From: an uncultured Bacteroides sp.
GTDB taxonomy: Bacteria; Bacteroidota; Bacteroidia; Bacteroidales; Bacteroidaceae
Direction of reading: 5' to 3'
DNA length: 64,000 nucleotides
Assembly (NCBI GenBank): GCA_947646015.1
Contig: CANSEY010000002.1
Span: 310,001-374,000, forward strand
Position 1 is the stretch's first letter; every line of letters begins with the position of its first letter. The position numbers and the translations under genes were made by a program. Below the pieces are notes generated by a model. That model saw nothing but the letters and a program-made list of their open reading frames with translations. It made no database searches and was not told the origin of the DNA. Below, piece after piece: positions 351 to 6,067 of this stretch.

Positions 351-2156
351 TCATGGAATCCATTTTCTTTTCTTTTCATACAAATACATAAGAGCAAATA
401 AAGTTTGGACATGATAGTCTAAGTTCATTTTAAAAAACTCTTCCCTCTTATTTATGGCGGACGCGTTTTTTGTGAACAGCACTCCGTCCATCATACATTT
501 TGGAAAAACCCACTGGAATTGTCCAATTTTCGATTCTGTATTTCCTATATATCTCATTTTCAAAACATCCGCATCGGACAGTTTATCCATCGACAGATAA
601 CACGGACTGATACCCGAACGTTCGATACAGTATTCCAATCCGGCAGACGACGAAGACTGCAATCGCCTTATTCCCATTTTACCAGGAAATACCCATGTCA
701 AATAACTTCCCCCTCCGGCAAGCAGTCCCACGGCGGAGTAGTCATCACCGTATGAACCCTTCATATATTCTCCGAAAGGGCGCATGTCCGATCCCAGCCA
801 TCCAGCGATACTTGTATAATTCGCATGCCCCAAATGACAATATACGGTAGTCGTTTCATCTTTTTTAAGCATTGTTTTCATTAAGAACTTCGCATTCTCG
901 TACATGCCGGAATCCCTACCCCGAAAACGATTCAGTTCATCAACGGTCGCTTCCTCCTCCGCATTCAGGCAATAACTCATTATTTCCGCTTCTCGCCGGG
1001 TAAGTATGCCCTTGAAGCCATGATTGGCATGCAACACAGAGTCCGCCCCTTTAAAAGGGAACTTCTCGTCCGACAACAGAAGAGAATTGCATATCGCTTT
1101 CAAGCCTTCGTCGCCTTTACCTCTGCGGAGCGTGTAAAAGAAGTAAAACAGGTCGATACTGCTTTGTAAGCGGTAAATATTCCGGTCAATGCCAAAGAAG
1201 CTCACCTTTTCTTCCGAATGCCGGTTGTATTCTTTAATCCATCGCATAAGAGACACAAAGGATGAAGAAGAAAATAAGACCTTGTCAAAAGAGGAAGCGA
1301 TACTGTCCGGCTTGAACCGCTCGTCCCCCTCCAAATACCGGTTGATATGGAAAGACAATGTCAGGGGCATTTCTAACAAGACGAGCCTGCATTTTCCGTG
1401 TTCGATCCTATTCTTGATTATTTCAACACCCATGTCATTCATCGTTCCGGTGCCATGCACGCTCTCTCCGATGGCAAGTATCCTCTTATCGGAAAAGGAC
1501 AGAGACTTAAGATCGTCACCGTTCACGGGTATCACATCCAATTCCCGAACGGAAGCCGTTGCACCGTTATTCAATGATGGGGGTTCAACCGCATATTTTC
1601 CATCAATTAAGATATCCAAAGAGTCAATCCATATTTTAGAGTATTCCCCGGGCTTAAAGGAATTATCCGCCGATCCTAAAGGATCGACCGGAAAATCCTT
1701 TTTCCTGGGCTTCTCCCCTTGGGCTTCAAGAGCCACTCCCAGCAACAGAGGAGAAGCTATATCCACACTCCGGCGGGCTACCCTCCATGTGTTGGCAGCA
1801 GACAACCGAAACGTGTCCACGGAAGTGACCTCCCTGCATTCACTAATCCCACTCAGCTTCAAATACAGGTCATTGCAGTTTTCTGTTTTATACTTTATCC
1901 TCACTTCAATATCTGCCCGCTTTTTTTTATCCATATGATAAAAAAGCGGTACCGTGAACCCCGCGCTCCCCTTAGCTTCATATGACGGATACAATAAAAG
2001 CGGATAAGAGCTGATCGCGCTATCTATTTTTGATTGCCAGGAAAAATTAGTGTACGTAGCCCAGTCGTACGATCGGGCGGATTCACGCATGGAGGGTGCA
2101 ACCGAGCAAGATTGCGCTAAAAAAATAACCGACGCCAATAATATAAGGTATTTCAT
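351..2156 (-). CDS. Erythromycin-esterase-family lipoprotein
   Basis: A 601-residue exported lipoprotein: signal at residues 1-17 with lipobox LAQSC. Residues about 18-200 are an extra N-terminal region I do not recognise, beta-rich in appearance. Residues about 205-600 match the erythromycin esterase fold: GESVHGT at 230-236 supplies the conserved Glu and His, followed by an LLEMP segment and a later HLGHANY segment. Cytosolic EreA/EreB proteins are shorter and cleave macrolides, but most family members have other or unknown substrates, so antibiotic resistance should not be assumed. It is the gene after the leader-peptide gene (60-bp gap), and a similar lipoprotein follows, so a role in maturing or protecting against the exported peptide is plausible. 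GC content (about 47 percent in a hand count) is higher than in the genes upstream. Confidence 0.75.
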   Translation of the reverse strand: MKYLILLASVIFLAQSCSVAPSMRESARSYDWATYTNFSWQSKIDSAISSYPLLLYPSYEAKGSAGFTVPLFYHMDKKKRADIEVRIKYKTENCNDLYLKLSGISECREVTSVDTFRLSAANTWRVARRSVDIASPLLLGVALEAQGEKPRKKDFPVDPLGSADNSFKPGEYSKIWIDSLDILIDGKYAVEPPSLNNGATASVRELDVIPVNGDDLKSLSFSDKRILAIGESVHGTGTMNDMGVEIIKNRIEHGKCRLVLLEMPLTLSFHINRYLEGDERFKPDSIASSFDKVLFSSSSFVSLMRWIKEYNRHSEEKVSFFGIDRNIYRLQSSIDLFYFFYTLRRGKGDEGLKAICNSLLLSDEKFPFKGADSVLHANHGFKGILTRREAEIMSYCLNAEEEATVDELNRFRGRDSGMYENAKFLMKTMLKKDETTTVYCHLGHANYTSIAGWLGSDMRPFGEYMKGSYGDDYSAVGLLAGGGSYLTWVFPGKMGIRRLQSSSSAGLEYCIERSGISPCYLSMDKLSDADVLKMRYIGNTESKIGQFQWVFPKCMMDGVLFTKNASAINKREEFFKMNLDYHVQTLFALMYLYEKKRKWIP

Positions 2157-2216: not shown

Positions 2217-2750
2217 TCATTCACCAACCGTTCTTGATGTAACAAACTGACCCGTGGCAGCATCATAAACTGAAATTTGAGTTCCTCCGTACGGTATATT
2301 CGTTTTAACAAAGTTGAAAGAAGACGAAGCATTATAGCCCTTTTCCAACAGCTCTCTCAAAATAGATAATTCCATATTGGTGATGTCTTGTGAAACATGG
2401 CTTACGAGTGATCCTAACGGAGTAAGCCCTACAGCTTCGGAGAGAAATCTGTCCCACCCTGTAGAGGAGATCGAGGTGACATAATCAGGAAATGTATAAT
2501 ACATTTGTGATACCGATCCCGAGTATACCGAACTCCCATAAATATACGTATTGGTAGCTACATATCCCATTCCTTCTACATAACCACCGTTCCAGTTGTC
2601 ATTGCTAAGCATGTTATCGAATTCCGCTTGGGTATAAGGATTGGCTGATGTTCCATTTCCTCCCCCAACATAGCTCATTTGCAAGGACTCTTCAATTACC
2701 GGCATTGTTTTCGCCAGTTCATTTAAACTTTTTCTTGTCAGTTTTTTCAT
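2217..2750 (-). CDS. Double-glycine leader exported protein (candidate RiPP or bacteriocin-like precursor)
   Basis: 177 residues. Residues 1-30 look like the Bacteroidales double-glycine leader type: MKKLTRKSLNELAKTMP, an acidic stretch, then SYVGG at 26-30, where a C39 peptidase would cut. The predicted cargo, about 147 residues, is rich in Gly, Ser, Thr, Tyr and Asn and contains no cysteine, so thioether rings are impossible. It begins GNGTSANPYTQAEFDNML, then has NWNGGYVEGMGY. It lies 33 bp after the glycosyltransferase and is transcribed with the TolC and LanC-like genes, which fits export through a type I route. The peptidase/ABC exporter is not in the window. The leader is recognised with fair confidence; the activity of the cargo is unknown. 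Confidence 0.7.
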   Translation of the reverse strand: MKKLTRKSLNELAKTMPVIEESLQMSYVGGGNGTSANPYTQAEFDNMLSNDNWNGGYVEGMGYVATNTYIYGSSVYSGSVSQMYYTFPDYVTSISSTGWDRFLSEAVGLTPLGSLVSHVSQDITNMELSILRELLEKGYNASSSFNFVKTNIPYGGTQISVYDAATGQFVTSRTVGE

Positions 2751-2783
2751 TGTTGTTGAATTTTAAAGTTATTATTAAATTTA

Positions 2784-3623
2784 TTATAGGTTCAACTTCT
2801 TTTCATTCTTTGAAAATAAAGTTTGAAATAAAGTTAATACTTCACACTTAGTAAGTAATTGTTTTTCATACAACTTACATAAATCACCATAAGCTGCCAC
2901 TAATTCCGGATATTCATTTTTATTGAGTTCTATCAGATATTCCAAAACCTCATTAATTATAGACTCTGTTGTTGCTCTTTGCTCACTACTTTTTTGGCTA
3001 CTGACCTGACTATCTGATATTCGGTAATAGAGTAATGGTTGACTGTCAATATAAAATCTCCCTCCTGACTTTGCTATCTCCACCCAAAATTTAAAATCTT
3101 CGGCATAAGGGCAGTTCTCATATTTTAATGCATTCTTTTTCAAAAAATCCATCCTTATCATAGTAGTGGGATGAAACAAGAAATTTCCCTTTGTAAATTT
3201 TAACAGTGGTTGTTCAACCAACCCACTCAAGGTACTCAATAAACCATTCGTTTGTGAATATGTTCCAATACTGTTCATCCAAGTTCCACAAACAGTTACA
3301 TCCGGATATTCTTGCATAATCGCATATTGAATTTTTAGTCTATCGATATGCATTATATCATCTCCATCCATACGAGCCATATACTTTCCTAAAGAATTCT
3401 CTATTCCAAGGTTCAATGACTCTATAAAATTATGACTGTTCTGAATAAGACGTACTCTTTTATCATTATATGACTGAATAATAGAAGACGTGCGGTCAGT
3501 AGAACCATCGTCTATGAGGATAAACTCAAAATCCACAAAAGATTGCTCTAAGACGCTTTCTATCGCATCTTTTATATGCATTTCGGCATTATAGACAGGC
3601 ATTACAACAGATATCTCACACAT
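2784..3623 (-). CDS. Family 2 glycosyltransferase
   Basis: 279 residues with a GT-A fold start: ISVVMPVYNAE at about 3-13, the nucleotide-sugar DDGSTDRT at 38-45 and the metal-binding DGDD at 86-89. A Cys-Pro-x-AEDF segment further on is typical of family 2 enzymes. I chose the ATG giving MCEISVV because the family fold begins there and it lies 13 bp after the stop of the LanC-like gene; the longer reading frame would overlap that gene by 71 bp. There are no membrane segments, so it acts in the cytosol on a sugar nucleotide. Its place between the LanC-like gene and the leader-peptide gene suggests that the exported protein could be the acceptor, but this is inference; a cell-surface glycan is equally possible. 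Confidence 0.85.
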   Translation of the reverse strand: MCEISVVMPVYNAEMHIKDAIESVLEQSFVDFEFILIDDGSTDRTSSIIQSYNDKRVRLIQNSHNFIESLNLGIENSLGKYMARMDGDDIMHIDRLKIQYAIMQEYPDVTVCGTWMNSIGTYSQTNGLLSTLSGLVEQPLLKFTKGNFLFHPTTMIRMDFLKKNALKYENCPYAEDFKFWVEIAKSGGRFYIDSQPLLYYRISDSQVSSQKSSEQRATTESIINEVLEYLIELNKNEYPELVAAYGDLCKLYEKQLLTKCEVLTLFQTLFSKNEKKLNL

Positions 3624-3636
3624 TGTTATCAAGTTA

Positions 3637-4608
3637 TTAAAGTAAAGGAAATTTTTTATTCGCGCAAAAGCCAAGATAACGGGCCAATCCATATTGATAT
3701 CCAACATGTATACAATTGGGACGAACCATTCTTTTTATCCTTTCTAAACTTTCTTCAAACAAATCCATTTCTATACGCTGAATTTTTACACGATTTTCAT
3801 CAGCGTTTTCTATGATTCCCGTTAAATTTATCTTTTGGTCCAAAAAGAGAATAGCCGGATTAATATTCTTTTGTCCATATCTGATATGATCTCTTATTAC
3901 ATCATTAAAACCAACCATATTATTTTTAGTAATGATACTACGTAAATAATACCCCCTAACGAGTGAACTCGCAATTCTTCCCTCACTATATAATGTAACG
4001 TAACTATCCATCAATGATTTTGAAAAATATTTATAATTGCAAAAATCGACCAACTTTAAATAAGCCTCATACATTTGTAATACATAATCTTTACTATTTA
4101 TGTAATAAATATTTTTCCAATCGAAAAACTGAAGTGATAAATAAAGTTCCAGTCCTTGAAATATTTTCTCAATAATTGAATATATTCTCTCATCTTGCTT
4201 TTGTAATTTATCCAAGACAAATAAAAAATAAATAATTTTATATGAAACTAACAGCTTATCCGGCTGCTTGTCAATGTTTTCAAAATGTTTGATTATTGCT
4301 TCGCGTTGGTCTCCAAACAAATCTTCAAAATCGGCATCAATTAATTTATTTGTTATTAGATAAATAAGGACATATCCTATTCCGGACATACCATTTTCAA
4401 AGCCATAATCATTTGTTTTTCTTATTAAAGATTCTTGGAATAGGCTGAAAGCTTTATCTTCAATTTCAGTATCTTGCAAACATTTAGCAGTTTCAAATAA
4501 CGCTAAAGAGATTCCTGACTTTCCGTTGTAAAGACCGGAAGAGTTGACAGAGCAGGCATTCAGTGAGATATAATCAACAAGTTTTCGTATGGTTGTATCA
4601 CTAATCAT
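3637..4608 (-). CDS. LanC-like protein lacking the zinc ligands
   Basis: 323 residues. Two early segments, GLYNGKSGISLALFE (about 26-40) and FENGMSGIGYVLIYL, match the Gly-rich inner-helix repeats of the LanC alpha/alpha toroid. The later segments that carry zinc ligands in true cyclases (a Cys in a WC-x-G context and a Cys-His-Gly pair) are absent; the C-terminal third has only scattered Cys. The protein is also shorter than usual (about 400). It overlaps the TolC gene by 8 bp, pointing to translational coupling, and the gene is very AT-rich (20-27 percent GC in two sampled lines). With a precursor lacking cysteine, it is probably not a lanthionine cyclase; a binding or scaffold role in peptide processing is my inference. 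Confidence 0.6.
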   Translation of the reverse strand: MISDTTIRKLVDYISLNACSVNSSGLYNGKSGISLALFETAKCLQDTEIEDKAFSLFQESLIRKTNDYGFENGMSGIGYVLIYLITNKLIDADFEDLFGDQREAIIKHFENIDKQPDKLLVSYKIIYFLFVLDKLQKQDERIYSIIEKIFQGLELYLSLQFFDWKNIYYINSKDYVLQMYEAYLKLVDFCNYKYFSKSLMDSYVTLYSEGRIASSLVRGYYLRSIITKNNMVGFNDVIRDHIRYGQKNINPAILFLDQKINLTGIIENADENRVKIQRIEMDLFEESLERIKRMVRPNCIHVGYQYGLARYLGFCANKKFPLL

Positions 4609-6067
4609 TGAAGAGTATTTTTTCTAATTCGACATTTTTTTTAAAATCATATAAAGCCAAATTACGTAATGTAAAGAAGCTTTCGTAAGAATCTTTGATG
4701 GCAGAGTAGTAACGCTGCATAGCATCATTCCGCTCTTTTTGTGCGGTGGCAAGTTCATATACCGACACTTTTCCCAATGAAAACTTTTTCGTCAACATCT
4801 TATACTGTTCTTTCGATAACGCATAGGCTCTTGATGCTGTCAGCCAAAGCTTTACACTATGATCATAAGCATTTATCTTTTCTTTTACTTCGTTCTCAAA
4901 TTCAAAATTTTTTTTTTCTATTCGCAACCGACTTGCATCATAATTATTCTTTGCGATCCGGATATTATTTTTGTTGATGCCCCACTGAAAAATAGGTATT
5001 TGAAATTCAATGATCACGGACTGTCTTGTATTTCCATGCCGGTAAGCATCTGCCAATGTTTCAGCATACTGATTTATTCCATAGTTTAAACTTATATTTC
5101 CATTGAACCTATTCTTCAATTTGATAGAGAACAGGTTTTTCTCCTCTTCCAACTGTTGAATCTCTTGCTGATTTGAAATTGGATTATTTTTTTTCACATA
5201 GTAGATTGCAAGCCGAGCATCGATGGTTAAGGGTAAGTCAAAATCCGGTATTGTAATTTCGGCATTATTTTCTATTCCTAAAAAAGTAAAAAGTTTTTGT
5301 ATTGATTCCGCATAGTGTTTGACCGCATTTTCATACATGTATTGCAAGTTTAAGGACTGCAATTCCATCTGCTTGTAATCATATTCAGTGATACTTCCAT
5401 TCCTCAATTTTATCTCTGCAATATGTAACAGAGTGTCGTTGCTCTGTTTGATATCTATGGCAAGTTCACTATCCATCTTACTCAGTATGGCGGATAAATA
5501 AAGCGTCAATGCTTGTTGCTGGATCTGGGCAATGTTTGAACAATATTGTTTCACGGCCACTTCGTTTTTGGCACGTTCAATTTTGTTTTCCAACCTTTGT
5601 AATTTTCCTCCTCCCCACAACTGCTGCGAATAGCTTATAAAAAACGGATTTGTACTAAAACTGTTTTGTTTACGTGAAAACTCATTCAAATAATTTATAT
5701 TACTTCCAATACTCAGTTCCCCTCCTGTTATGCTTATTTTCTGTCGTACAGTAGTACCAAAATTAGTATTATTTGAATTGTCCTCTACATAAGAATAACT
5801 TCCATCGATCGGTTGTTGCAATAATCGCAGTGACCTGTTAAAATTGATAGGATTAAAATTCAGCACAAATGCAGGGAGAAAGCTTTTCTTATAATTCTCG
5901 TATCGCAATAAGTCATTTTGGAAGTTAAGTAATTCTATTTTAGCCGATGATGATTCCAGAGATAGTCTGTTTATCACTTCATCTAATGTCACTTCCCTTG
6001 GTATACTTTGACAATATGCATTCGTATAGCACAAAGAAAATACCAATATATATAATAATGTTTTCAA
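4601..6067 (-). CDS. TolC-family outer-membrane efflux protein
   Basis: 488 residues with a signal peptide (cleavage likely after NAYCQ, about residue 20). The body is the usual duplicated arrangement of long amphipathic helices separated by beta-strand pairs: residues about 160-260 and 360-470 are coiled-coil-like, and PFFISYSQQLWGG and IIEFQIPIFQWG are the strand segments found in each half. Length fits the TolC/OprM family. It is the first gene of the peptide-export block and overlaps the LanC-like gene, so it probably forms the outer-membrane exit for the double-glycine protein. The membrane fusion protein and ABC peptidase partners are not in the window. The 154-bp region upstream is AT-rich; no full consensus promoter was found there. 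Confidence 0.88.
   Translation of the reverse strand: MKTLLYILVFSLCYTNAYCQSIPREVTLDEVINRLSLESSSAKIELLNFQNDLLRYENYKKSFLPAFVLNFNPINFNRSLRLLQQPIDGSYSYVEDNSNNTNFGTTVRQKISITGGELSIGSNINYLNEFSRKQNSFSTNPFFISYSQQLWGGGKLQRLENKIERAKNEVAVKQYCSNIAQIQQQALTLYLSAILSKMDSELAIDIKQSNDTLLHIAEIKLRNGSITEYDYKQMELQSLNLQYMYENAVKHYAESIQKLFTFLGIENNAEITIPDFDLPLTIDARLAIYYVKKNNPISNQQEIQQLEEEKNLFSIKLKNRFNGNISLNYGINQYAETLADAYRHGNTRQSVIIEFQIPIFQWGINKNNIRIAKNNYDASRLRIEKKNFEFENEVKEKINAYDHSVKLWLTASRAYALSKEQYKMLTKKFSLGKVSVYELATAQKERNDAMQRYYSAIKDSYESFFTLRNLALYDFKKNVELEKILFND

Follow-up and report, generated by a model that had tools for sequence, protein, structure and literature searches.

Walker et al. (2020; PMC7268733) reported 1,392 LanC-like proteins without a recognized dehydratase partner; in the portions of that paper used here, some of them lie beside ABC transporters and proteases and are regarded as a possible uncharacterized class of ribosomally synthesized and posttranslationally modified peptides (RiPPs), without a proposed function or partner. 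Zinc-less LanC-like proteins have also been described in Bacteroidales clusters, where they occur near carbohydrate-active enzymes and were judged to be endoglucanase-like (Fernandez-Cantos et al. 2023; PMC10352776, in the sections considered here). We analyzed a locus of this kind in a 64,000-nucleotide stretch of DNA (the window) from an uncultured Bacteroides sp. (GCA_947646015.1, contig CANSEY010000002.1, positions 310,001 to 374,000), in which a zinc-less LanC-like protein is encoded together with a TolC-family channel, a family 2 glycosyltransferase (GT2), and a cargo protein with a double-glycine (GG) leader. In the same sections of PMC10352776, clusters BGC3-5 resemble this locus in having a LanC-like protein without the C...CH motif, no LanB, and GG precursors; BGC3 also has glycosyltransferases, and BGC4 has a full PCAT/MFP/OMP exporter. 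A preceding sequence-only reading of the window, which knew of no described system with this set of genes, had missed that zinc-less LanC-like proteins, some of them with glycosyltransferases, were already published for Bacteroidales clusters. However, BGC3-5 hold radical SAM enzymes, unlike the window operon, and the account of them considered here does not include a LanC-glycosyltransferase fusion, systematic adjacency of the two, their joint absence, or a polymorphic effector cargo. No report of such a fusion or of this operon was found among the titles and abstract openings of the open-licence literature. The exporter and the fold are known, but the tie between LanC-like proteins and glycosyltransferases and its link to polymorphic effector-like cargo are new.

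The locus is an operon of ten genes, listed below with window coordinates or, for the genes left of the window, positions on the same contig (C2).

4601..6067, minus strand: TolC-family outer-membrane channel, 488 amino acids (aa), TTG start; PF02321 (OEP), 76.3 bits
3637..4608, minus strand: zinc-less LanC-like protein, 323 aa; Pfam LANC_like
2784..3623, minus strand: GT2; PF00535 (Glycos_transf_2), 105 bits; longest open reading frame (ORF) from 3707
2217..2750, minus strand: GG-leader cargo protein, 177 aa, no Cys
351..2156, minus strand: Ere-like protein 1 (Erythro_esteras family), 601 aa; PF05139, 67.9 bits
1..161, minus strand: start of the gene for Ere-like protein 2, 603 aa, inside which the window opens; PF05139, 57.6 bits
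C2 308193-307075, left of the window: GT4, over the Pfam cutoff
C2 307094-306426, left of the window: GT25, over the Pfam cutoff
C2 306429-305071, left of the window: HlyD; HlyD_3, 39.6 bits, over the cutoff
C2 305066-302883, left of the window: C39-ABC transporter; Peptidase_C39, 111.9 bits, and ABC_tran, 107 bits, both over the cutoffs

The four genes that the sequence-only reading had described do share the minus strand, and the C39-ABC transporter and HlyD that it predicted to the left are both present. The C39-peptidase type I secretion set is complete, comprising the C39-ABC transporter, HlyD, and TolC (all over the Pfam cutoff) and a GG-leader substrate; the N terminus of TolC is signal-like by eye. 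For GT2, the ATG at 3623 is a more probable start than 3707, so that the large overlap of this gene with the LanC-like gene is probably not real, and after this correction the intergenic gaps range from -20 to 189 bases. The G+C content of the 13.2-kb operon is 36.8%, compared with 41 to 44% in the flanks, as for an acquired island. A tblastn search with the LanC-like protein gave no match among 72,556 plasmid records, and scans of the operon for promoters and terminators stayed near chance (34 versus 27.2 expected [standard deviation, 5.2] and 4 versus 4.5 expected, respectively).

The LanC-like protein matches Pfam LANC_like with 22.8 bits (cutoff, 23.2; E value, 4e-5) over residues 8 to 94 only, and the score reaches 27.6 bits when its frame is prolonged past the upstream TAG. 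Its AlphaFold model is a LanC-type alpha/alpha toroid according to the structural matches of VIA-align, with which Foldseek's own matches were re-examined; Foldseek alone gave no match with an E value of <0.001, though its first seven rows were of the LanC type. In a hand-read global profile alignment, the canonical zinc ligands Cys, Cys, and His fall on N250, V302, and G303 of the window protein, which bears out the earlier claim that it lacks the ligand motifs. WC[YH]G and CHG are present in all 10 canonical LanCs of the same class (picked among 42 hit rows, the frame being the longest that contained CH; lengths were consistent). Among 20 aligned LanC-like rows, 19 of which have a letter at these columns, none has His at 303 or the Cys-His pair, so no intact ligand set was recovered; single Cys residues were seen at 302 in locus L083 and at 250 in L069. 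The zinc site of canonical LanCs spans residues 238 to 327 of ~400, and the half-size LanC-like proteins (~200 aa) described below cannot hold it because the C-terminal half is missing at such a length.

Of the 31 carrier genomes, 11 were searched for LanB (PF04738), which was detected in none of them versus 9 of the 10 canonical-LanC genomes; the window's own genome is 74.7% complete. LanM (DUF4135) was not found in that genome either, in a weak search without a positive control. Lanthionine synthesis was rejected for the window cargo, as the sequence-only reading had concluded: the zinc ligands are absent, the cargo has no Cys, and LanB was not found. The class III/IV lanthipeptide synthetases and LanCL1/2 share the LanC fold with the window protein, as judged by the structural matches, and in LanKC and LanL the LanC domain is carried on one chain with other modifying domains, such as a kinase. 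The window protein differs from all of these in lacking the zinc ligands and in having a glycosyltransferase as its partner.

That partnership recurs throughout the loci compared. LanC-like matches were identified in 31 of 251 family genomes and 13 of 30 genera, and a scan of 84,980 species genomes with the five closer LanCs as the query added 21 named loci, including those of Tannerella forsythia ATCC 43037, Prevotella conceptionensis, Paludibacter, Proteiniphilum, and, distantly, Chitinophaga niastensis. Flanks were taken for part of the 44 family-genome hit rows. In 46 loci, 51 of the 54 LanC-like ORFs were either fused to a glycosyltransferase (9 ORFs) or adjacent to one on the same strand (42 ORFs, one being a 51-aa piece beside the L066 fusion), versus 18 of the 251 genes lying more than four genes from any LanC in the same loci (Fisher P = 9e-39, with related loci treated as independent and the control genes drawn from the same glycosyltransferase-rich loci). 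This count leaves aside L081 to L083 (same contigs as L038, L037, and L039), L001 to L004, and the window's own LanC, and L047 and L085 belong to the set but yielded no LanC-like ORF; in L047, the gene caller preferred an overlapping frame. The three exceptions are an 86-aa frame (L040), an ORF whose glycosyltransferase is further off (L055), and a 2,517-aa ORF (L056:3692-11245) with an N-terminal LanC and a C-terminal DUF5128 propeller, in which no glycosyltransferase domain was found.

At least three domain orders occur among the fusions: GT4-LanC (L057; LANC_like, 25.2 bits, over the cutoff), GT2-LanC (L066, 1,513 aa; 25.9 bits, over the cutoff, in a metagenome assembly, so that it could be an assembly effect), and GT2-GT-LanC, in which the LanC part was identified by phmmer with the LanCs of the window genome (Pfam misses that of L062):

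L057:15060-17501, L058:7205-9631, L059:9016-11523, L060:7053-9455, L061:9005-11431, L062:5606-8014, L063:4000-6411: GT2-GT-LanC fusions, 800 to 835 aa

LanC-like proteins were found in four settings: (i) window-type loci, with a LanC of ~335 aa, GT4b and/or GT2, cargo, and exporter genes; (ii) loci with a half-size LanC (200 to 230 aa), a GT4, and a galactosyltransferase-like protein; (iii) loci of the GT2-GT-LanC fusions, which adjoin a radical SAM protein and mostly also a short GG-leader-like peptide and a large secreted-looking protein; and (iv) loci with a radical SAM maturase, a glycosyltransferase, and a GG precursor of the TIGR04148/04157/04149 kind, named after the copy that the window genome itself has on contig C17. 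The partner thus varies by locus (GT2, GT4, or galactosyltransferase-like), and the shared element is therefore the GG-leader substrate. Because LanC-like domains are fused to or stand beside glycosyltransferases, the best-supported reading is that the LanC fold has been reused for binding or scaffolding in a glycosylation route. This agrees with part of the earlier proposal, which combined a modified or glycosylated export product with a LanC binding or scaffold subunit, and the glycosylation of the cargo stays a presumed step. An alternative is that the LanC-like protein is itself a sugar enzyme, an (alpha/alpha) barrel shaped like those of epimerases and of GH88/GH105 glycosidases, that trims or remodels a glycan; this would agree with the endoglucanase-like assignment in PMC10352776. 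We regard this as decidedly unlikely.

Among the 27 window-type loci, many of them on cut stretches, C39-ABC is present in at least 18, HlyD in at least 15, and TolC in at least 11. Of the four genes first described, TolC is kept least often and was not found in the stretches examined for T. forsythia and P. conceptionensis, several loci being truncated at contig or stretch ends. LanC, a glycosyltransferase, and GG cargo occur together in, for example, T. forsythia, P. conceptionensis, and Paludibacter, in answer to the co-conservation check that had been suggested for Bacteroidales. Among the 12 closest HlyD homologues in the 251 genomes (the window's included; at least 36% identity, a cut chosen after viewing the list of 31), eight lie near LanC, and GT2/GT4b is present in all eight. 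The other four lie in loci without LanC, and none of the three that could be assessed (the contig of L099 is too short) has an adjacent GT2/GT4b (Fisher P = 0.006 for joint absence). Among the weaker HlyD matches, G202:C39, G003:C100, G000:C17, and G000:C33 are also near LanC, and the remaining ones are not. The pattern suggests that LanC is gained or lost together with GT2/GT4b and not with the exporter.

These loci also bear on another explanation, in which the glycosyltransferases and LanC modify a surface glycan serving to shield the producer or to tether the exported protein, the cargo itself being unmodified. GT4, GT25, and GT2 are families that also build surface polysaccharides, and L097 and L098 have exporter genes without LanC and without any glycosyltransferase nearby (L097 has a GG-leader-like gene by eye; no cargo was recognized in L098). 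However, none of the ten operon genes encodes an initiating lipid-linked transferase, flippase, polymerase, or oligosaccharyltransferase according to Pfam, and no strongly hydrophobic stretch is present in its GT2, GT4, or GT25. Elsewhere, LanC-glycosyltransferase units sit with radical SAM maturases and GG peptides, which points to a peptide acceptor. We therefore consider modification of a surface glycan unlikely.

The cargo protein itself consists of three parts.

2661..2750, minus strand: predicted leader, cargo residues 1 to 30, MKKLTRKSLNELAKTMPVIEESLQMSYVGG, from alignment with relatives and the leader profile
2559..2654, minus strand: segment of residues 33 to 64, PYT..EF..ML....W.GGYVEG.GYV, from alignment with relatives
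2220..2558, minus strand: variable C-terminal domain of type "W," common to six cargo proteins; no Pfam match

A profile built from 13 seed leaders, the window's among them, identified 31 frames (three of them <100 aa) in 23 of the 28 stretches examined; the stretches without a match are L004 (which has no LanC), L043, L045, L076, and L079. Conservation is strong in the leader (MKKLTRKSLDELAKTMPVI...GG), after whose double glycine a C39 peptidase would cleave. The W.GG core of the adjoining segment is found in 15 of the 31 frames, but the downstream sequence is divergent. The window cargo has no match in Pfam, NCBIfam, or PHROGs, and its AlphaFold model, of low quality (pLDDT, 54.5), was excluded from the fold claims. 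The W-cargo profile gave weak matches in the PDB (among them an adhesin, matching the leader region; E values of ≥0.005), which were taken as chance. The 177-residue cargo is free of Cys, as first noted, but this is not a hallmark of the system: only 6 of the 31 frames lack Cys, one of them a 63-aa frame, and the cargo is polymorphic and partly effector-like.

Several of the other cargo proteins carry recognizable domains. The L040 cargo has CHAP (42.2 bits) and NLPC_P60 (28.2 bits) domains, both over the cutoff, that of L074 has a Tox-MPTase2 domain (25.7 bits; cutoff, 25), and a DUF5675 domain constitutes the cargo of L073:13107-13652 (64.4 bits) and L080:1685-2218 (66.7 bits). CHAP matches just under the cutoff of 26 bits were seen in L075 (22.9 bits), L077 (25.8 bits), and L081 (23.8 bits), and an HExxH pattern is present in 7 of the 31 frames, one of them CHAP-like. 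The 31 frames together show the pattern of polymorphic toxins, with a constant N terminus and variable tails that include toxin domains. Interchangeable tails that bear peptidoglycan-hydrolase-like or metallopeptidase-toxin domains characterize interbacterial effectors; the window cargo would be an effector by association. In the parts of the polymorphic-toxin survey used here (PMC3482391), a constant N terminus is likewise followed by exchangeable C-terminal domains, including NlpC/P60-like domains and other peptidases, and Tox-MPTase2 is a Pfam family named from such systems. Here, however, the invariant portion is a GG leader directing C39 type I export, which is not among the secretion routes named in those parts, and a glycosyltransferase module is added.

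We propose that the zinc-less LanC toroid is a noncatalytic acceptor-binding partner for the cytoplasmic glycosylation of a toxin-like cargo before its C39 type I export, a reading that we rate somewhat above even. The cargo would be synthesized with its GG leader and held in the cytoplasm by the LanC-like protein, a metal-free toroid without a cyclase site, probably through the leader or the adjoining segment. Leader binding is favored because the loci differ in their partner glycosyltransferases but share the GG-leader substrate. GT2 would then attach the first sugar to the held cargo, most likely on Ser or Thr since the cargo offers no Cys, and GT4 and GT25 may lengthen the glycan. Once the C39 domain of the ABC transporter had cut after the double glycine, the cargo would leave through HlyD and TolC to inhibit competitors. 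Type I export carries its substrate directly across both membranes, so the cargo would bypass periplasmic glycosylation, and a cytoplasmic module would be needed if a sugar matters. More tentatively, and with slightly less than an even chance in our estimate, the LanC fold may be a general acceptor-recognition module, zinc-less and sometimes half-size, that presents GG-leader substrates to varied glycosyltransferases, with Bacteroidales glycosylating polymorphic antibacterial effectors before export by the C39 type I route.

Glycocin clusters are among the close parallels: they combine a GG leader with a C39-type exporter, their precursors being short and having disulfides. In glycocins such as enterocin F4-9 (PMC8620827, as far as considered here), a ribosomal peptide is glycosylated on Ser/Thr. 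By comparison, the window cargo is 177 aa long, is Cys-free, and is encoded alongside LanC and several glycosyltransferases, GT2 adjoining the cargo gene. It would also be missed by the precursor criteria given in the portions of PMC7268733 used here (30 to 120 aa with a core Cys).

Some observations weigh against the proposed role of the LanC-like protein. The joint-absence argument is suggestive and stands on three informative absences, and one of these loci, L096, has TolC, GG cargo, a fused GT4+GT25, HlyD, and C39-ABC without LanC and without GT2/GT4b, so LanC is not required by every glycosyltransferase. Adjacency is not proof of a physical complex, and the sugar on the cargo is a putative modification, as are the acceptor residue, leader binding, killing, and immunity. 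Acidic residues E39, D46, and E50 are conserved in the LanC-like family, which could mean an unrecognized activity of these proteins. Finally, only 4 of the 19 cargos compared with Pfam reached the cutoff; 3 were near-CHAP, and 12, the window's included, had no usable match.

The Ere-like gene directly follows the W-type cargo gene in all six loci, and the protein retains the GESVHG and GHANYT stretch, aligned with a structural relative. The N termini of the Ere-like proteins at window positions 351 to 2156 and at L004:16350-18161 are of the lipoprotein type by eye, and the nearest solved structures by sequence belong to proteins whose names refer to succinoglycan biosynthesis (2rad, a weak match). 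Within the proposed mechanism, the Ere-like proteins would probably serve in immunity or processing from a position outside the cytoplasm. In macrolide self-resistance, the compound is inactivated inside the cell and reactivated after export. The LanC-like protein and GT2 could similarly inactivate the cargo intracellularly for self-protection, with an extracytoplasmic Ere-like hydrolase reactivating it after export, as the invariable gene order and the retained motifs would allow. However, many loci with other cargo types (L072 to L078 and L080) have no Ere-like gene and yet retain LanC-glycosyltransferase, and we hold such a cycle to be very improbable. An Ere-related protein occurs in near-identical graspetide loci of two species, where it is regarded as a modifier or resistance factor (PMC8939145, in the part considered here). 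Directly after CHAP-like cargo, L075:13850-14767 (22.9 bits) and L077:13803-14678 (26.4 bits; cutoff, 26) encode a DUF3828 protein with a signal-like N terminus, a candidate immunity family.

Some further loci were also seen. Contig C17 of the window's genome has a second large RiPP-like cluster (L005:373-11196 and L100:11925-12524) encoding TIGR04148 and further radical SAM proteins, a TIGR04149 Cys-rich GG precursor, a TIGR04157 glycosyltransferase, retropepsin-like proteins (by eye), and three half-size LanC-like proteins. In one half-LanC locus, L054:12586-14154 encodes a protein in which Pfam, applied to L054 only, identified C39 peptidase, VKOR, and thioredoxin domains, perhaps an oxidative leader-processing enzyme, and ORFs resembling it are present in L047 and L049 to L053. 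Transposase-like ORFs (by eye) lie inside or beside L037/L082, L067, and L074.

More than 1,000 dehydratase-less LanC-like proteins were left unclassified in 2020 (PMC7268733, in the portions used here), and for one group of them the consistent fusion to or adjacency with glycosyltransferases offers an answer about their role that can be tested. If the proposal is true, a LanC-like gene beside a glycosyltransferase gene and near a GG-leader gene would serve as a search signature, and Bacteroidales would have both a glycosylation route for exported proteins that bypasses periplasmic protein glycosylation and a C39/type I route for polymorphic effectors.

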